Shown here: in pieces, positions 25,793 through 35,583 of the stretch
Layout of the letters: every line of letters starts with the position of its first letter
How positions within the stretch are numbered: position 1 is the first letter of the stretch
NCBI GenBank assembly: GCA_003152075.1
Contig: PLZG01000075.1
Location: forward strand, 1 to 41,742
DNA: 41,742 nt
Reading direction: 5' to 3'
From: a candidate division FCPU426 bacterium
Lineage (GTDB): Bacteria; Oederibacteriota; Muellerivitia; Muellerivitales; Muellerivitaceae
Translations under genes and position numbers: made by a program
Notes under the pieces: generated by a model
What the model saw: only the letters and a program-made list of their open reading frames with translations
Databases searched by the model: none
Told to the model about the DNA's origin: nothing

Positions 25793-26370
25793 TAGACTCC
25801 AACTTTTAAAAAAATGTTCCAAGTTTCTAATAGGCGCGGATGAATTATCATTCTCTTTTCAAAGAGAAACGTGATCGTCATCGAGGCTTTCATTGAAACG
25901 GCCTTAGTTAAGTTTTTTTTTGCCGTTAATCGGACCTGATCCACACCTTGAAATTTTCTACCCGGCTCAATAAAATCCGCGACGAATATCAATTGAGCAA
26001 GGGAACCCATACGTGGATGCCCAAGTGTGTGGCACCTTATCGCCTCCAAAACTCCCAAGTCCCGAACACTCCATTTGTTAAGGGCAATTGACGCGGCAAC
26101 ATGGGGATGCCAAAGTCCCGGCATTTCCCTTTCCTCGTCGTCTAACCGAAAGCGACTCTTCCGTAACCAGGATTTCATTTCTGATTTAGGCAATTCCTTA
26201 GCGCAATCATGAAGCCAGGCGGCCAAAACGGCATTTGTAACCGACAACCCGTGATGAATGGCCAAGAGTTTTGCGGTTTTGGCCACTCCCGAGATATGCT
26301 TAAAACGCCGCGGGCTGACTTGTGTTTTAACCCAATTTTGAATCGATTGAATATTTCTCTCGGCCTTCAC
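25792..26370 (-). CDS. yqeK: HD-domain symmetrical Ap4A hydrolase, YqeK type
   Basis: YqeK-type HD hydrolases split diadenosine tetraphosphate into two ADP, limiting an alarmone made by aminoacyl-tRNA synthetases. The 192-residue protein has H25 (RRFKHISGVA), the H54-D55 doublet (AAWLHDCAKEL), WHPHVAA (H88 and H90), RCHTLGHP (H114) and VADFIEPGR (D132). This is the expected metal ligand set. The GTG start at 26370 overlaps the upstream permease stop by 4 nt (GTGA). It lies in the same transcript as argS, so synthetase and Ap4A clearance may be co-expressed. The usual nadD and rsfS neighbours are absent. Confidence 0.9.
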   Translation of the reverse strand: MKAERNIQSIQNWVKTQVSPRRFKHISGVAKTAKLLAIHHGLSVTNAVLAAWLHDCAKELPKSEMKSWLRKSRFRLDDEEREMPGLWHPHVAASIALNKWSVRDLGVLEAIRCHTLGHPRMGSLAQLIFVADFIEPGRKFQGVDQVRLTAKKNLTKAVSMKASMTITFLFEKRMIIHPRLLETWNIFLKVGV

Positions 26371-27296
26371 CCGTAAATACCCGTATAGGCAATACCACGA
26401 ATGATGGTTCTTTGGAAAAAAATCAAAAGAATTATTGAGGGAATTGTGCTAAGAACCAAAGCGGCCATCACCACGTTCCAAGGCTCGCCTGTATCGATCA
26501 GTCTTTGGACCCCAAGGACAAGTGGGTAATAATCCGGATTGTTAAGAACAATGAGGGGCCAAAAAAAGCTGTTCCAAGTCGTCACGAAAGAAAAAATAGC
26601 GAGAATCGACATAATGGGTTTTGTCATTGGCAGGATAAAGCGGAAAAAAATCCGCGTCTCGGTACAACTGTCAATACGAGCGGCGTAAATAATTTCATTC
26701 GGGATGGAATCGTAAAAATCCTTTAACACGACGATGCTGAAAGCGCTAAAAACCCCGGGCAAAATTAAGGCCCAATAGGTATTGATCAAGTTCACGTTAG
26801 CCATTCCCGGCCCGAATGGAAAGAATTTCATTATGAGATAAAGGGGGATGACCAGAACCTCGAAAGGAACCATCAGGCTTGTCATGAATAAAAGCAGTAT
26901 CCCTCCGGCAAAGCGGACCCGAAGTTTTGTTAAAGAATAGGCCGCCATGGAGGAAATCAACAACTGCCCGAGAACCACGCAAGCGCACATAAACAAGCTG
27001 TTAAGGAAATACCTTCCGAACGACACCAAACGGAGGGCTTCCCCGTAGTTTGAGAAACTGAAATCTTTTGGGATGTAGTTTTGGGGCACCGAATATATCT
27101 CGCTGGGTGTTTTGAAGGATCCCAGGATCATCCAAACAATTGGCGCAATGGTCAACAGCCCTCCCAAGGTCAGCAAAAATGTACCCAGCACCAGGGCTAT
27201 TTTGACCGATTTTTTCTTCCGGTCCTGATGGGAAAATAAGCCTCGGGGACCAGCTTTGATTTTTTTTTGTTGGAGACTTTCCCCGAAAATTTCCAT
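26367..27296 (-). CDS. carbohydrate ABC transporter permease, MalG type
   Basis: The 309-residue inner-membrane permease has about six transmembrane helices. It carries the EAA coupling loop (EIIYAARIDSCTETRIFFRFILP), where the usual E-A-A---G reads Y-A-A---S with the LP end conserved. The MalG-type N-terminal FKTPSEIYSVPQNYIP and C-terminal FFQRTIIRGIAYTGIYG ending are typical of CUT1 sugar importers. ATG at 27296 has AAAGGAAG 6 nt upstream. It follows the MalF-type gene by 12 nt. No ATPase gene is in the operon, so a shared MsmX-like ATPase encoded elsewhere is expected. Confidence 0.92.
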   Translation of the reverse strand: MEIFGESLQQKKIKAGPRGLFSHQDRKKKSVKIALVLGTFLLTLGGLLTIAPIVWMILGSFKTPSEIYSVPQNYIPKDFSFSNYGEALRLVSFGRYFLNSLFMCACVVLGQLLISSMAAYSLTKLRVRFAGGILLLFMTSLMVPFEVLVIPLYLIMKFFPFGPGMANVNLINTYWALILPGVFSAFSIVVLKDFYDSIPNEIIYAARIDSCTETRIFFRFILPMTKPIMSILAIFSFVTTWNSFFWPLIVLNNPDYYPLVLGVQRLIDTGEPWNVVMAALVLSTIPSIILLIFFQRTIIRGIAYTGIYG

Positions 27297-27308: not shown

Positions 27309-28574
27309 CTATCGGGACGTTTGTTTCATCTGTAAAAAACGGGCCATGGTGAAAATAAATAGTATCCCGAACATCAACATCGCCATGGCGGAGGCGTAAC
27401 CTAAATCCATGGTTCCAAAAGCGGTTTTATAAATGTAGGTGCCTATTACCTCTGTGGCGTGCATGGGCCCCCCTTTCGTCATGACGAAAACCTCCGTGAA
27501 AATTTGGAAAGCGGTCAAAACCTGGATGATCGATAAAATCCATAAGATCGGCATCAAATGGGGAACGGTAATGTTAAAAGCCTTTTTGCGGATCCCGGCT
27601 CCGTCCAGCTCCGCCGCCTCATAGAGTTCCTCCGGAAGGTTCTGAAGTGCGGCGAAATAAATAAGCATAAACCAACCGGTGTTTTTCCAAACGAACATCA
27701 CCGCGATGGAAATGAGTGCCCACCGTTGGTCGGTAAGCCAACCAACTGGAGGAAGCGAGAGCAAACCCAGGATGGAATTCAAAACCCCGAAACCCTCATC
27801 AAATATCCACTTCCACAAATTGGCGGCAGGAATGGCTGGGATTACAAACGGAAGTAGGTACAGGACCTTGAACAGCCCCTTACCTCGGCTTATTTCATTG
27901 AGTACAATTGCCAGCAAAATAGGTGGCCAAAGTCCCAGTGCCAAGGAAAAAAGAGTGAAAAAGAGAGCGTTGACCACTGTTTGCCAAAAAAGCGAATCCT
28001 GAAAAGCCCGCTGGTAATTATCCCAACCCACCGGAATACTATTTCCCAAAGGGCTGTAATGGGTCAAGCTGATTTGAAAACCTTGGATCATCGGATAAAG
28101 GTAGAAAAGCCCAAAAAAACCGAAAGCAGGAAACAGAAACCAGAAAGCCTGCGCCCGGTAACTCAAGGGGTGCCAAAAGGCCTTGCCGGGTCTGATGGCT
28201 TTATCGGGTTCGATGGGTTTGTCGAAGATCGAGGCGGTTTTACGCCTGTCCCGGACTTTCCCAGAATCCTGGCGCTTGCGGATAAGGGCTTTTGCCCGGT
28301 CCTCGACGGATTCGGTGGATTGTCCCTGAAGAAAGGGGACGTTTTCCAAAGATTCGGATGATTTTTTGGGACCGGAATCATGGGAGGGTTCCACCGAACC
28401 TCCCCCCAGCTGTTTCATCAATTCCAACCGGGTCTTCTCGTCGTCTGGTGTGGGTACATCCTCGATCTCCAAATCAAGGTCGCCTTCTTTGGAAGACATT
28501 TCCTTGGGAAGCGGAACGGGCTTTTTCTTTTCCTCGTCATCATCGTAAATGGAAAATGGTTTGTAATCCGTCAT
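27309..28574 (-). CDS. carbohydrate ABC transporter permease, MalF type, with 140-residue charged N-terminal extension
   Basis: The 421-residue permease has six transmembrane helices starting near residue 142 and a canonical EAA loop (ELYEAAELDGAGIRKKAFNITVPHLMP). It pairs with the MalG-type permease. The first 140 residues are unusual: hydrophilic, highly charged and low in hydrophobics (DDDEEKKKPVPLPK, EDVPTPDDEKTRLELMKQL, RKRQDSGKVRDRRK). They are probably disordered and cytoplasmic. Typical MalF/UgpA proteins begin with only 10-30 residues before the first helix. ATG at 28574 overlaps the binding-protein stop by 4 nt (ATGA). Confidence 0.9.
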   Translation of the reverse strand: MTDYKPFSIYDDDEEKKKPVPLPKEMSSKEGDLDLEIEDVPTPDDEKTRLELMKQLGGGSVEPSHDSGPKKSSESLENVPFLQGQSTESVEDRAKALIRKRQDSGKVRDRRKTASIFDKPIEPDKAIRPGKAFWHPLSYRAQAFWFLFPAFGFFGLFYLYPMIQGFQISLTHYSPLGNSIPVGWDNYQRAFQDSLFWQTVVNALFFTLFSLALGLWPPILLAIVLNEISRGKGLFKVLYLLPFVIPAIPAANLWKWIFDEGFGVLNSILGLLSLPPVGWLTDQRWALISIAVMFVWKNTGWFMLIYFAALQNLPEELYEAAELDGAGIRKKAFNITVPHLMPILWILSIIQVLTAFQIFTEVFVMTKGGPMHATEVIGTYIYKTAFGTMDLGYASAMAMLMFGILFIFTMARFLQMKQTSR

Positions 28575-29987: not shown

Positions 29988-32351
29988 TCAGGGCTTCGTG
30001 GTAAGCGTGATGATGGCCCTTCGCGGGGATTCGCCAGTTCCAGCATCGTTGGTGGCCTTAGAAGGCGCCCGGGAGCCGTAACCCACGGCGTAAATAGTGT
30101 CAGGAGAGATTCCCAGTGTTTTTGATAAAAACTTTTTTACTTCCATCGCGCGGTTGCGGGATAACGACAAAAGGTCGCCGGTTTCGGTGGGGGCGGCGTA
30201 ACCCTTAACCACCAAAATGCTTTTGTTGAGGTAGGGACGAATGGATGACGCGGCCTTTTCAAGTTCTTTTTTTGACTCCTCACCCAGATCCGAGCTTACG
30301 ATGGCGAAATAAACCGTCGTTAAATTCAAGGTCATCTGCTCACCCGACTGGGGTGGTTGGTAATCGACCTGGAGAGTGAAGGGATCGGTGACAGTAAAGT
30401 TTCCAGCGTTATCGGTAGCGGAAAAAACCGCCGATAAAAGATTTCCAGGCTGGACCATTTCCCCTTTGCGGGATTTCCCGTCCCAAACCACGCTTTTTGG
30501 TGGCGTACCGTTCCCCCCAAAATCCATGAGTGCCGAACCAGTCTCATCGAGCAGGTCCATTCTCCAATTCTGGAAACCAATGCGGTCACCCGCGGCAAGA
30601 CTAAAACGAAAATTCTTTTTAACGTTGAAATCCACTAAGTTGTCCTCACCGGTCAGGGTCAATTCAGGCGGGGTATTGTTGATGGTGATTTGGAGCGCGT
30701 CGGTTTTAAGCGAATTCCCCGCTTTGTCTTGGGCAATCAAAAGACATAAATAGGTTCCGTCCGGAGCCACTCCACTGTTAAGATTTTTTCCGTTCCACCG
30801 GATAGTTTTTGGCAATTTTGCTTGTCCTTGGCTTTCAAAAACAACCTTGTTCGTTGAGGCTTCACTCACCTCAAAATCCCAGTTCTGAACCTCCGAGGTT
30901 CCACCGGGTAATACAGTGAAAACAATTTCATTTTTACGTTTCTTCCCCGCGTTAGTAGAAAAATACCGGCTGGTGGTCTGAATCTCAAAGTGGGATCGAG
31001 TAGATAGGATTTCCACGTTTTCAAAATCGTCCGATAACATTTCATTTTTTCGGTTGAACGTTTTTAAGGCCACCCGGTATTTCCCGTCCGCGACCTGTTT
31101 TCCCTCCTCATTGATGCCATCCCAGAGAACCATGGGCACCAAGGGTCCTGTTCCACCGACCCGCCGAACAGGTTTTTGACTCGAATTTTGGAATTCCAAA
31201 ACCCATCGGGAAACATCAACCGTTTTTCCCTCGGGAAAGGAAATGGCGGTTGTTTTTTGTCTTCCAGAAGGGGAGAAAATGGGTGGATCCACTTGAATGA
31301 TCATTTTTCTTAAAGGAACAGCCGAGACTGGTTTTCCAGTGGAAGGTGGGGCCTCGGTCAGATCGGCACCTGAAGCGATGTTGATTTCGGAGGATTCCGT
31401 GATTGCGGACGGTGCCTTTTCAATTGCGGGTTCTTTTTTGCCAAAATCATCAAATCGGTAAATGAAAGACAAATAATGGGTAAACTGGGAATTATTGACA
31501 GAAGCCCGAAAAGCATAGCTTACTTCAAAAGGTTGGGCTGGATGGTACCCGGCTCCCAACGTGAAATAGCCGTCGTTATTGAATAAATCATCATAACCCA
31601 TGCGGACAGAATAAAAACGGTCGCCGAAAAACCTCTCAGCCCCCAAGCGTAACCGGTTATGAAGGGAGGAATTTTGCAGGGTTTGATCGACGATTTGCAA
31701 ATCCGATTCAATCCTCGTGTCAGGAATGTTCTCGTAGGCGACCCCCAGGATGAAGGTGCGGGTAACCGCCTGCTCATCCGTATTATTGAACCGAACCTGG
31801 GTTCCGGCGTCCTTGACCGCCAAGGCGAAGGAAGCGATGGTTCCCTGGGGCCGTCGAAGGTCATAGGAAAGCCCAAAATCAAGGCCCAGGCCCCTCCCAT
31901 TTTGAGTCGTGGATCCGACCAATGTGGAAAGGGCAAGGTACTTTAAATTAACTCCAAACAAGAAATCCCGGGCCGAGTTCAAGGGCAGGGCTACCGAACC
32001 GATGTAAGTCGTATTGGAGGTAGGTGAAGCGGGAAAATCCGAAAATTGGGACAGGGCAAAAACGGTTCCATCCGGAAAGGGATACAAAATACTGGTATTC
32101 ACTTGAAGATCGGAGTTGCTGGGGTTGAACCCCAAACCTAATTGACCCATTGGAACCGTGGCTCGGGCAATACCAGCCGGGTTCCATTGAATGGCGTGGG
32201 TTCCCCCCGCGATGGCGGCTACCGCGCTTCCCATGCTTAAGCCAAATGTGTCTTGTTCCAAGTTGGGATTAAAGGCGAATAGAGGGCGGGCAATGAAACA
32301 GAAGCCTAAAAGCAAAAGGAAGCGTGGGAGTCGGTATAACTTAAAAAACAA
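29988..32351 (-). CDS. outer-membrane PorV-like beta-barrel fused to FlgD-like repeats and an OmpA C-terminal domain
   Basis: The 787-residue protein begins with a signal peptide (about 8-26). A PorV/UPF0164-like barrel follows (about 32-300), opening with the typical DTFGLSMGSAVAAIAGGTHAIQWNPAGIA pattern (about 34-62). Next come a Pro/Ser linker, three FlgD-type Ig-like repeats (about 353-448, 457-556, 561-664) marked by VLWDGINEEG, IRWNGKNL and VVWDGKSRKG, and an OmpA-like domain (about 676-785: LSRNRAMEVKKFL, GYGSRAPSKATND, PRRAII). It would sit in the outer membrane and hold peptidoglycan. FlgD-like repeats usually occur in secreted surface proteins. The start is TTG at 32351 with AGGAG 6 nt upstream. 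It is probably a single-gene unit. Confidence 0.82.
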   Translation of the reverse strand: MFFKLYRLPRFLLLLGFCFIARPLFAFNPNLEQDTFGLSMGSAVAAIAGGTHAIQWNPAGIARATVPMGQLGLGFNPSNSDLQVNTSILYPFPDGTVFALSQFSDFPASPTSNTTYIGSVALPLNSARDFLFGVNLKYLALSTLVGSTTQNGRGLGLDFGLSYDLRRPQGTIASFALAVKDAGTQVRFNNTDEQAVTRTFILGVAYENIPDTRIESDLQIVDQTLQNSSLHNRLRLGAERFFGDRFYSVRMGYDDLFNNDGYFTLGAGYHPAQPFEVSYAFRASVNNSQFTHYLSFIYRFDDFGKKEPAIEKAPSAITESSEINIASGADLTEAPPSTGKPVSAVPLRKMIIQVDPPIFSPSGRQKTTAISFPEGKTVDVSRWVLEFQNSSQKPVRRVGGTGPLVPMVLWDGINEEGKQVADGKYRVALKTFNRKNEMLSDDFENVEILSTRSHFEIQTTSRYFSTNAGKKRKNEIVFTVLPGGTSEVQNWDFEVSEASTNKVVFESQGQAKLPKTIRWNGKNLNSGVAPDGTYLCLLIAQDKAGNSLKTDALQITINNTPPELTLTGEDNLVDFNVKKNFRFSLAAGDRIGFQNWRMDLLDETGSALMDFGGNGTPPKSVVWDGKSRKGEMVQPGNLLSAVFSATDNAGNFTVTDPFTLQVDYQPPQSGEQMTLNLTTVYFAIVSSDLGEESKKELEKAASSIRPYLNKSILVVKGYAAPTETGDLLSLSRNRAMEVKKFLSKTLGISPDTIYAVGYGSRAPSKATNDAGTGESPRRAIITLTTKP

Positions 32352-32401
32352 CTTCTTCTCCTGCGGTCATTAGGCTAAAAACCTATTTTTAAAGGAGATT
32401 T

Positions 32402-32442: not shown

Positions 32443-32586
32443 AACAGGGTGCTGAAAAAATGAATTTACACCCTGTCTACAGCCACGGGCTTGGAGCGAA
32501 TCCCAGTAAACCCCTTGTTTTTGAAGGGGTGATTCGCGGCGAAGATACGAAAAAGTCCGTTCTTTGGACTTTTTCAACATCCTGCT
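32443..32586. repeat. multi-hairpin palindromic element
   Basis: This 144-nt stretch is built of nested inverted repeats. The outer arms are AACAGGGTGCTGAAAAA (32443-32459) and TTTTTCAACATCCTGCT (from 32570). Inside are an 8-bp perfect hairpin (32444-32451 with 32469-32476), a long hairpin (GCGAATC with GATTCGC, then ACCCCTT with AAGGGGT, 32496-32537) and the terminator hairpin 32550-32574. Elements of this 'GGATGTTGAAAAAGTCC' type are, to my knowledge, dispersed in some genomes. No other copy is inside this window. Confidence 0.55.
32550..32574 (-). terminator. intrinsic terminator after yggT (bidirectional)
   Basis: Directly after the yggT stop, the minus strand forms AAAAAGTCC / GGACTTTTT with a 7-nt loop and a T-run in the 3' arm. 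The stem is symmetric and could also act on plus-strand transcripts. Confidence 0.6.
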
Positions 32587-32884
32587 AAAGCCGACTGGCT
32601 ATCCCATAAAGGGTTGAGAGGATGAACTTTTGGGCAAAAATGAGGGTTAAAAGTGCGAAAAAAGGAGATAAATCCCATCCATGGAGCCTCCAAGGTGGAA
32701 GCAACCGTCGGAAAGGCGCAAATAGCGGATCGGTAATGCCGTAAATCGCTCGAACAAAGCCATTGAAAGGATCCGCGCTCGCCCAGGACAAAATCACTCT
32801 GATCACGATGACAATCTCAATGGCGTTTAAAATCATTCCCAGGATATCCGCGGAAGCCCTTAAAAAATTCGCGAGGATGAACAA
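32585..32884 (-). CDS. YggT family membrane protein
   Basis: The 99-residue protein has two hydrophobic segments (about 12-35 and 72-95) around the family block VIRVILSWASADPFN...ITDPLFAPFRRLLPP, then the WDLSPFFALL signature. YggT proteins are associated with cell division, osmotic stress or membrane organisation; the mechanism is uncertain. I chose TTG at 32884 because AAAGGAG of the preceding gene's last codons sits 7 nt upstream, 1 nt after that gene's stop. An upstream in-frame start at 32974 lies deep in the peptidase gene and adds unrelated residues. It is followed by a strong terminator. Confidence 0.87.
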   Translation of the reverse strand: MFILANFLRASADILGMILNAIEIVIVIRVILSWASADPFNGFVRAIYGITDPLFAPFRRLLPPWRLHGWDLSPFFALLTLIFAQKFILSTLYGIASRL

Positions 32885-32885
32885 T

Positions 32886-35480
32886 TTATTTCTCCTTTGG
32901 ATTAAATTTGGGAGTGAGAAGGACCCAGGTCTTTTGATTGGTTTGCAAATATTTTTTAACCGCTTTTTGGACATCCTCCGCGGTTATCTTTTGGATTAAT
33001 TGGGGGAATTTTTCCACGGTGGATGCCCCCAAACCCGACATTTCATATCTGGCGTAGGAGTGAACTTGGGACCGGTTGGATTGGAGACCCATCCGGTATA
33101 GGCCAACCATATAGGTTTTTGCCCTTTGGAGTTCAGCGGCGGAAACTTTCTTTTTGGAAAATTCGGATAAAAGCTCGACCAGTTCCCTTTTGGCTTCGGT
33201 GACTTTCGAAGGCGCGCAACCGATATAGATTTGATAGGCTCCGGCGAGGATTCCGGCGTCATGGGCGGCGTAAACGCTATAGGCTAGGCTTCGTTTTTCC
33301 CGCAATTCCACGAAAAGCCGCCCTCCCATGCCATTCAACAGGGTGTTCATCACCCGAAAAACAAAATATTCGCTGGATCCAAAAACAGGAGCACGAAACC
33401 CCAGGACCAGGTTGGCCTGTCGTCCGTCCGTTTTCAACTCAAATTGGACGGGCTTCAAGGCCGGCGCGGCGACCTTAATCAAACTTTTTCGTTCGCCTGA
33501 GGGCAATAGGGGAAGTTTAGAATCGAGAAACTTTTTAAGATCTTGGGCGTCAAAATCGCCCACGGCCACCCAAGTCATGTTTTTAGCCGTCAAATGATCG
33601 CGGTGCCACCGCAGAATATCCTTCTGGTTTATTTTCGTGAGGCTTCCCTTTGTGCCCATAGGCATGTGGGCATAGGGCGTCTGGGCAAAAGTGAGGACAT
33701 CCGACTGAAGGAGCGCGTATTCGCTTGGGTCGTCTTTCAACCGTTCGATCGCGGCGATTTGTAATTTCTTTTCCTTCCCCACTTCATCAGCCGAAAAGCG
33801 GGGGTTGAAAAGGCATTCCACCATCAAGTCAAATGACTTATCAAAATTCGAGCCTAAACAATCGAGGGTCATGCCCCAATAATCCTTTTCCATCAGGGGG
33901 TCCAAATGGGCCGCCAGGTTTTCCAGTTCCCTGGAAAATTCCTCGTGTGTCTTCCTCCCAGTACCTTTTAAAAGGCACTTGGTCATCAAAGCGGTTATGC
34001 CATGAAGCTTTTTTTCCAGCGGAAAACCACCATTGACAAAGGCCCCCAGGGAAACCAGGGGCACCCCCCTTCGTTCCTTGACCCATAATTCGGAGCCGTT
34101 TTTTAACGAAAGTTTTTGCAATTGTTTCCGTGACCTGGGGTTGATGGCATGGGGAGGGATGAAATCCAATCCCTTTTTTAGTAGGGCTTGCCAATGGCCG
34201 GCATTTATATTTAGTTTTTCGGATTTAGGATGGTAGAGGAGAAGGGAGGCTTTTGGGGGTTGAATATATTTTTCAGCGACTTGTTGAACCTCTTTGAACG
34301 TCACCGAATCCAGCTTAGCGAGGAATTTTTCCTCGAGTTGAAACCCACCCTGTAATTCCCAAAAACCGAGGGTTTTCGATTGACCGTCCATATTTTGCTT
34401 TTCGAAAATTTTAGAAGCCTTGATCTTATTTTTGACCTTGATCAACTCATCCTCAGGAACTCCCTCCCGAATGATCTTCTTCACCTCTGCCATTATTTCC
34501 ATTAAGCATTTATCCACCCGCCGCAAATCGGTTAAAGCCTGAAAGACCAGGGCTCCCCCGTATTTACCGGCAAAATGATCGCTTCCAACCTCGTCGGCGG
34601 ACTGGCTTTTTTCCCGGATGGCCAGGTTCAAGCGGCTGGCCGCGCCATCCCCCAACAGGGCCTCTAATATCTCAAGGCTGGCGGCGTCCGGATGCTGGAG
34701 CGGGACCGTTGGAAAGCCCAGGGAAAGATATAGCTGCTGGACATCCCCTGGTTCTATTTTTAACCGCAATTCCAGGGGATCCTTGTCAAAGATGAATTTC
34801 CGCTTGGGGGGAAGTGGTTTGACCGACGATTCGAATTTCTTTTGAACCCATTGGAGCACCTGGCTTGTCGAGACATCACCGACGATGGATATAACCGTGT
34901 TCGAGGGAACATAGTGGGTTTTATAATATTTAAGCAGGGTTTCCCGGGGAACCTTTTTGAGTATTTCCAGGTCACCGATGACGGGCCAATGGTAGGGATT
35001 TTTTTGGTAAAGAATCTTGAACAAAAGCTCCCAGGACCAGCTCCAGGGATCGTCCTGGCGCATGCGCATTTCCTCAAAAACGACTTCTTTTTCCTTCTTT
35101 AACTCGTCCCCATCAAAGGTAGAGTTGAAATAAGCGTCAAACTCAATTTCAAGGGCCTTTTGAATCTGGTCGCTGGGCAAAACCACATAAAAGCAGGTGT
35201 GCTCGAAACTGGTAAATGCGTTGAGATAGCCCCCGGCGGCCTCCACCTCCCTGGAAATTTCACCCACTCCCCTCTTGTTCGTTCCCTTAAAAATCATATG
35301 TTCAATGAGGTGGGCCATTCCCCTTTCCTCGGGTTTCTCGTCGATGGAGCCAGCTTCAATCCATATGTTGAGGGACACGACCGGGGTGGCGTGGTCCTCT
35401 TTGATGAGCAGGGTGGCGCCATTTTTGAGCTTCGCTCGGAATACTCCGTCACCAGCCGCGATAGTTTTTTTATTTTTCAT
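32886..35480 (-). CDS. M16 family zinc metallopeptidase, two-half fused form
   Basis: The 864-residue protein contains two M16 halves. The first (about 1-430) has the inverted zinc motif HLIEH (H57, E60, H61), and Glu136 in EVVFEEMRM is the likely third ligand. In the second half (about 450-864) the matching site reads HGITALMTKCLL, without zinc ligands, but it has the substrate-clamping REKRSLAYSVY motif. This active/inactive pairing is the usual M16 arrangement, here on one chain. No signal peptide is seen, so a cytosolic peptide-degrading role is likely. ATG at 35480 is preferred over a TTG at 35522 that lacks a ribosome site. It is co-transcribed with yggT. Confidence 0.92.
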   Translation of the reverse strand: MKNKKTIAAGDGVFRAKLKNGATLLIKEDHATPVVSLNIWIEAGSIDEKPEERGMAHLIEHMIFKGTNKRGVGEISREVEAAGGYLNAFTSFEHTCFYVVLPSDQIQKALEIEFDAYFNSTFDGDELKKEKEVVFEEMRMRQDDPWSWSWELLFKILYQKNPYHWPVIGDLEILKKVPRETLLKYYKTHYVPSNTVISIVGDVSTSQVLQWVQKKFESSVKPLPPKRKFIFDKDPLELRLKIEPGDVQQLYLSLGFPTVPLQHPDAASLEILEALLGDGAASRLNLAIREKSQSADEVGSDHFAGKYGGALVFQALTDLRRVDKCLMEIMAEVKKIIREGVPEDELIKVKNKIKASKIFEKQNMDGQSKTLGFWELQGGFQLEEKFLAKLDSVTFKEVQQVAEKYIQPPKASLLLYHPKSEKLNINAGHWQALLKKGLDFIPPHAINPRSRKQLQKLSLKNGSELWVKERRGVPLVSLGAFVNGGFPLEKKLHGITALMTKCLLKGTGRKTHEEFSRELENLAAHLDPLMEKDYWGMTLDCLGSNFDKSFDLMVECLFNPRFSADEVGKEKKLQIAAIERLKDDPSEYALLQSDVLTFAQTPYAHMPMGTKGSLTKINQKDILRWHRDHLTAKNMTWVAVGDFDAQDLKKFLDSKLPLLPSGERKSLIKVAAPALKPVQFELKTDGRQANLVLGFRAPVFGSSEYFVFRVMNTLLNGMGGRLFVELREKRSLAYSVYAAHDAGILAGAYQIYIGCAPSKVTEAKRELVELLSEFSKKKVSAAELQRAKTYMVGLYRMGLQSNRSQVHSYARYEMSGLGASTVEKFPQLIQKITAEDVQKAVKKYLQTNQKTWVLLTPKFNPKEK

Positions 35481-35583
35481 GGTTAGGAACTCGAAGGAAA
35501 GAGTATTGGTGGTGCGTATCAATTGTCGTCAATTAAAAGAAATGCGTTTCAATAACTTAGGGCCGCGCCACCCTCAATAACAA

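Follow-up and report, generated by a model that had tools for sequence, protein, structure and literature searches.

Type 9 secretion systems (T9SS) have been described mostly from Bacteroidota and, in the literature covered, at most from the FCB phyla (PMC11285876, PMC4793230). In the translocon, the barrel protein PorV lies across the lateral opening of SprA and holds the C-terminal, Ig-like CTD of the cargo with its loops (PMC10994853). Genes for PorP/SprF carriers in Flavobacterium johnsoniae lie directly downstream of type B cargo genes, with PorE-like OmpA proteins near several of them, and in Porphyromonas gingivalis PorE, PorP and PG1035 are found in one complex that is proposed to be wall-anchored (PMC9143113, PMC12618676). 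An orphan shuttle of F. johnsoniae, Fjoh_1677, serves distant cargo (PMC12618676). The candidate phylum FCPU426/Goldbacteria has been placed near Elusimicrobia and Firestonebacteria (PMC7031533). No description of a barrel-Ig-OmpA fusion protein, or of any T9SS in FCPU426/Goldbacteria, was found in the literature covered, which excludes most subscription journals and preprints.

The window analyzed here, a stretch of 41,742 nucleotides, belongs to an uncultured bacterium of this phylum (genome G000, 4.1 Mb in 114 contigs). An earlier note had proposed that one of its genes encodes a PorV-like barrel, FlgD-like repeats and an OmpA domain on a single chain, serving as an envelope tether or a secretion shuttle.

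Gene and domain organization

The protein contains 787 residues and is translated from a TTG codon that lies 11 nt after the first base of an AGGAG ribosome-binding site; start codon and frame are kept in close relatives. The features of the locus are as follows.

29988..32351, reverse strand: 787-residue PorV-type barrel / three FlgD-like Ig / OmpA protein (open frame, TTG start with Shine-Dalgarno sequence, relatives)
32358..32362, reverse strand: AGGAG ribosome-binding site, 5' of the TTG start (sequence)
32274..32351, reverse strand: signal peptide, about residues 1–26, KLYRLPRFLLLLGFCFIARPLFA (sequence reading)
32172..32183, reverse strand: NPAG motif, residues 57–60, a FadL-type NPA hatch motif (21-sequence alignment, FadL fold match)
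31452..32150, reverse strand: 14-stranded outer-membrane barrel, residues 68–300 (AlphaFold2, Foldseek PorV/FadL, profile match to 6h3i PorV)
31761..31811, reverse strand: longest inter-strand barrel loop, residues 181–197, predicted external (alignment, models)
31311..31448, reverse strand: low-confidence linker, residues 302–347 (pLDDT <50)
31008..31298, reverse strand: FlgD-like Ig domain 1, residues 352–448 (Pfam FlgD_ig at 409–431, model)
30681..30989, reverse strand: FlgD-like Ig domain 2, residues 455–557 (sub-threshold Big_13 match, model)
30366..30665, reverse strand: FlgD-like Ig domain 3, residues 563–662 (VWDG motif, model)
29997..30332, reverse strand: OmpA-type peptidoglycan-binding-like domain, residues 674–785 (Pfam, alignment to Pal structures, PorE contacts from PMC7192894)
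28571..29881, reverse strand: extracellular solute-binding protein, first gene of the downstream sugar-type ABC transporter operon (Pfam SBP_bac_1)
27309–28574 and 26367–27296: ABC transporter permeases (Pfam BPD_transp_1)
32585..32974, reverse strand: YggT-family membrane protein, upstream of the barrel gene (Pfam)
32886..35522, reverse strand: M16 peptidase, upstream of the barrel gene (Pfam)

Open reading frame, Pfam, AlphaFold2 and Foldseek all agree with the proposed order of barrel, FlgD-like repeats and OmpA domain. Four relatives of the same family (f1) share 52–69% identity with the protein over its full length. This conservation rules out a chance open reading frame, and the identical architecture in independent genomes rules out an assembly artefact; a fusion gene unique to G000 was likewise rejected, as relatives carry the same architecture. 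The protein is also not a T9SS cargo itself, since its C-terminus is an OmpA domain and not a CTD. No CTD gene adjoins the window gene, whose neighbors are the YggT and M16 genes upstream and the sugar ABC transporter downstream, and the same holds in the rest of f1.

Barrel

A barrel is present where the earlier note had placed it (residues 32–300). Two AlphaFold2 models both show 14 strands within residues 68–299, with moderate confidence (mean pLDDT 69.6 and 66.2) and on a shallow alignment of 9–10 sequences. In the NPAG motif, Asn57 and Ala59 are invariant, and Pro58 and Gly60 nearly invariant, in 21 sequences. The predicted external loops are short in both models, with at most 17 residues, and neither model shows evident long cargo-binding loops like the ones in F. 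johnsoniae PorV. The longest loop (181–197), whose external side is deduced from the topology, carries the consensus DLDTxxxWxNGxxExxP across the phylum.

Ig matches dominate a Foldseek search with the complete protein, and the answer becomes clear when the barrel is used alone: the best PDB entry is 8gl6_F (E 3.6e-9), followed by FadL and then by 6h3i_F (E 1.6e-8), with 8gl6_F and 6h3i_F both being PorV within the SprA translocon complex. At the sequence level, a profile of nine barrels finds 6h3i PorV with an E-value of 6.7e-5, and the next match, at 0.05, is unrelated. The 6h3i PorV is thus the sole convincing sequence-profile match of the barrel, and PorV is also its top fold match in the PDB. 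The barrel further matches the NCBIfam PorV/PorQ model PorV_fam (NF033709), which spans a barrel only, with 55.6 bits (E 6e-15), below the curated cut-off of 90. UPF0164 (PF03687) has 13 matches elsewhere in the genome, several of them paralogous barrels, whereas the window protein misses this profile in Pfam and its barrel gives only a sub-threshold DUF5723 match.

Stalk and OmpA domain

Sequence motifs and the AlphaFold2 model define three Ig domains between residues 352 and 662, each with a W-(D/N)-G motif (WDG/WNG). Pfam FlgD_ig (PF13860) scores 33.2 bits at residues 409–431, with sub-threshold Ig matches at 526–557 and 455–558. Because the number of barrel strands is even, the N-terminus and the stalk are predicted to lie on the periplasmic side.

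The OmpA profile (PF00691) matches residues 681–769 with 41.7 bits (E 1.5e-10). In PorE, the side chains of Asp576, Asn584 and Arg591 contact peptidoglycan (PMC7192894). When the window protein is aligned to Pal structures, the Asp is replaced by Ala720, the Asn position is deleted and the Arg is retained (Arg734); throughout the window's clade the alignment lacks Asp and Asn, with only the Arg present. The OmpA domains of the f3/f9 relatives retain both Asp and Arg. A periplasmic Ig stalk with a terminal OmpA domain, as in the earlier note, is supported, and the case for anchoring to the wall is weakened by the loss of two of the three contact residues.

Distribution and phylogeny

A whole-protein search found matches in 48 of 59 relatives. 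Families f1, f3, f8, f9, f11, f13 and f14 have matches of nearly full length that include the barrel, the Ig region and the OmpA domain, and f16 also has a protein of equal length with these parts; altogether, the architecture is found in at least 18 relatives of several families. Many genomes of the phylum that encode SprA (f4, f5, f12) gave no full-length relative in the same 59-genome search. In one genome (G006) an in-frame stop or a break in the frame divides the relative at L039:5941-8352 into pieces of 594 and 190 residues; the protein is intact in other genomes.

In a tree of the barrels (midpoint root, for drawing only), the window clade joins the f3/f9 proteins and an 862-residue f9 paralogue with a support of 96/87, and this group is placed, with weak support (83/60), beside barrels encoded directly behind CTD genes. 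The proteins of f8, f11, f13, f14 and f16 lie in the same half of the tree but make up a clade of their own with full support, which leaves their strict orthology to the window protein unproven. Another barrel with an OmpA domain (L081) groups with an OmpA-less barrel at 99/92, and the OmpA domain has therefore been gained or lost more than once.

The architecture is thus not unique: it recurs across the phylum and has counterparts in another phylum (see below). No named family takes in the barrel-Ig-OmpA chain.

Export machinery in the same genome

The SprA profile (TIGR04189) matches one frame of 1988 residues in G000 (contig C39; best stretch E 3.2e-31) and has matches in 47 of the 59 genomes; the whole SprA proteins of three relatives score 227–229 bits, above the equivalog cut-off of 200. 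With the type A CTD model Por_Secre_tail (TIGR04183), G000 gives 37 matches, and it also encodes about 17 PorV-type barrels besides that of the window. No match to Peptidase_C25 (PF01364), which represents the PorU sortase, was detected in G000 or in any f1 genome, and the same search gave strong matches elsewhere. The profiles of GldM and GldN had no match in any genome, including those with strong SprA matches, in a search that had no positive control; a T9SS motor in G000 is unproven. Of the parts named in the earlier note (PorU, SprA, GldN and CTD-bearing cargo), SprA and the cargo were thus found and PorU was not detected; the blank GldN result is not read as absence.

SprA-like translocons of about 1900–2100 residues were noted in the phylum at L086:5308-11274 (contig C39 of G000) and at L060–L063; at L086, L062 and L063 the gene is followed by that of a giant CTD protein.

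Pairing of barrel genes with CTD genes

Pairing was examined in fourteen regions of G000, each with SprA or with PorV-type barrels besides the window's own, under a single HMM threshold for the CTD. At least 8 of the 17 paralogous barrel genes follow directly on a CTD gene of the same strand, compared with 15 of 166 other genes (Fisher P = 2e-4). This test compares genes within the same CTD-rich regions and is more conservative than the binomial estimate with an assumed background rate that it replaces. Three further upstream genes encode CTD-like C-terminal strands that score below the HMM threshold.

Five pairs of a CTD gene and a barrel gene were verified by reading the open frames in f1, f2 and f7 genomes. 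In f3/f9, the barrel-Ig-OmpA gene itself begins at or right beside the stop codon of a gene for a Thr/Pro-rich CTD protein. The overlap is 4 bp at L044, L046 and L047, with some doubt about the precise start at L045. A solute-binding protein and two permeases follow the barrel gene in the same order as in the window. The barrel-Ig-OmpA relatives of f8, f11, f13 and f14, whose neighborhoods were read, have neither an adjoining CTD gene nor a sugar transporter. Pairs of CTD and barrel genes are also present in other phyla (G053, G045). In G047, likewise from another phylum, two CTD genes are each followed by a fusion of barrel and OmpA parts of 974–981 residues with a different middle.

Several further observations concern barrel and CTD genes. 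The G047 proteins L113, L114 and L115 (974–1017 residues) have a PorV-type barrel and, on visual reading, a CARDB-like stretch, together with a single FlgD-like Ig domain and several domains of OmpA-like type; two of the three are encoded directly behind CTD genes. The CTD proteins encoded upstream at L044–L047 contain very long Thr/Pro repeats (TATPTxT) and are possibly heavily glycosylated stalks. The barrel-paired cargo genes L081:10418-11683 and L082:8795-9952 encode proteins that resemble ice-binding proteins (NF045625, about 95–99 bits, below cut-off) and have CTD-type C-termini. Close to CTD/barrel pairs, L075, L076, L077 and L084 hold small sigma-factor-like frames (about 190 residues), each followed by a frame of 200–320 residues with a FlgD-like C-terminus, possibly for cargo-linked regulation. 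Finally, the PorV-type barrel genes L078:5860-9577 (G000, contig C97) and L099:5141-6844 (G011, contig C17), from two families and one with an FN3-like tail, adjoin apparent flagellar rod/ring genes (FlgG/FlgI-like endings).

Possible function

A secretion-shuttle role, as suggested earlier, is plausible because an SprA translocon and CTD cargo occur in the same genome; PorU was not found, and the function itself is deduced. The reading that we favor, and to which we give an even chance, is that the protein is an outer-membrane carrier of the PorV family, working in an export pathway like the T9SS, whose chain also supplies a periplasmic stalk and an anchor to the cell wall. Cargo with a C-terminal Ig-like CTD would leave through the side of the SprA channel while held by the external loops of the PorV-type barrel. 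Since the barrel carries a stalk that ends in an OmpA domain, barrel and cargo would stay at the wall, held there by the three Ig domains and the OmpA domain, and the cargo would not be handed over to a PorU sortase. One chain would thus combine the jobs of a PorP/SprF-like carrier and of the OmpA-domain lipoprotein PorE, which are separate in Bacteroidota. The computations show the chain of domains, the kinship of the barrel with PorV, the SprA and CTD genes of the genome, and the pairing of cargo and barrel genes for the paralogues and the f3/f9 relatives. Docking to SprA, binding of cargo and of the wall, and which cargo would be served in the window's own species are matters of inference.

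The same parts could instead make a purely structural link between outer membrane and wall in the style of OmpA/Pal, in which the barrel is a mere plug, the Ig stalk sets the width of the periplasm and export plays no role. The OmpA-type C-terminus, the long stalk, the orphan position of the gene in the window's family, the conservation of the entire chain across much of the phylum and the f8, f11, f13 and f14 copies that lack an adjoining CTD gene all fit such a tether. We nevertheless regard it as rather unlikely, given that two of the three wall-contacting residues are gone in the window's clade, that the barrel is of PorV type and not of OmpA type, and that a plain tether would not account for the strong pairing with CTD genes seen for its paralogues and its f3/f9 relatives.

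A wall-held uptake channel of FadL type that supplies the downstream sugar ABC transporter appears less probable still. Its FadL fold and NPAG motif speak for this role, as do the genes for a solute-binding protein and two permeases that come immediately after the barrel gene in f1 as well as in f3/f9. However, 106–147 bp separate the barrel gene from the transporter (window and L044), compared with the 4-bp overlap of barrel and CTD genes in three f9 genomes; the transporter is absent beside the f8, f11, f13 and f14 relatives; and PorV is as close as FadL in fold and closer in sequence. We consider it quite improbable that the protein is a relic or special-purpose carrier, once the partner of a CTD cargo and in the window's lineage now serving other, unlinked cargo or no longer bound to the wall. 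The f1 proteins, with an intact chain that has neither an adjoining cargo gene nor the Asp and Asn wall contacts, would suit this history, for which Fjoh_1677 is a precedent (PMC12618676), but the whole-chain identity within f1 argues for retained function and an ancestral cargo neighbor is not established.

The carrier reading extends, more tentatively and with somewhat less than an even chance, to a sortase-free branch of the T9SS in FCPU426/Goldbacteria, in which many cargo genes would adjoin the gene of a dedicated PorV-type carrier, modular tails (OmpA, FN3, TPR) would decide the location of the cargo, and the window protein would be a stalked, wall-linked, single-chain analogue of PorP plus PorE. 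The picture for the phylum as a whole, in which SprA and numerous CTDs occur together with PorV-type barrels that are paired with cargo genes and bear modular tails, and in which no PorU was found, outweighs the single protein in interest. A system of this kind would show how proteins can be displayed at the cell surface in the absence of the sortase.

Comparison with known systems

The Ig stretch of the window protein (residues 406–638) aligns with Lsa66 of Leptospira (NF053608, cut-off 700 bits) with 48 bits (E 5.9e-13) and with nothing matched beyond the Ig part. With the C-terminal domains of OmpA, Pal and MotY, the OmpA domain of the window protein shares the fold and the Arg of the DAP pocket; unlike them, the window's clade lacks the Asp and Asn contacts.

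PorV (LptO), the type A carrier (6h3i, 8gl6), resembles the window barrel in fold and family, and SprA and CTD genes accompany the latter in its genome. PorV lacks both a stalk and an OmpA domain, and all type A cargo shares a single PorV. In G000, by contrast, the PorV-type barrels number about 18, their tails vary and about half are paired with a cargo gene; the external loops of the window barrel are also shorter.

PorP/SprF together with PorE offers the other close parallel, in that the carrier is encoded directly downstream of its cargo (in relatives and paralogues of the window protein only) and an OmpA domain provides the link to the wall. The window protein was not classed with this system because its gene does not adjoin a cargo gene and its OmpA pocket is incomplete. 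PorP/SprF and PorE are separate proteins in Bacteroidota, compared with one chain with a PorV-type barrel here, and the stalk of PorE consists of TPR and propeller domains rather than Ig domains. By analogy, the 787-residue protein may work like PorP and PorE combined; with carrier and wall anchor on one chain, the proposed complex of PorP, PorE and cargo would become testable in a simpler form.
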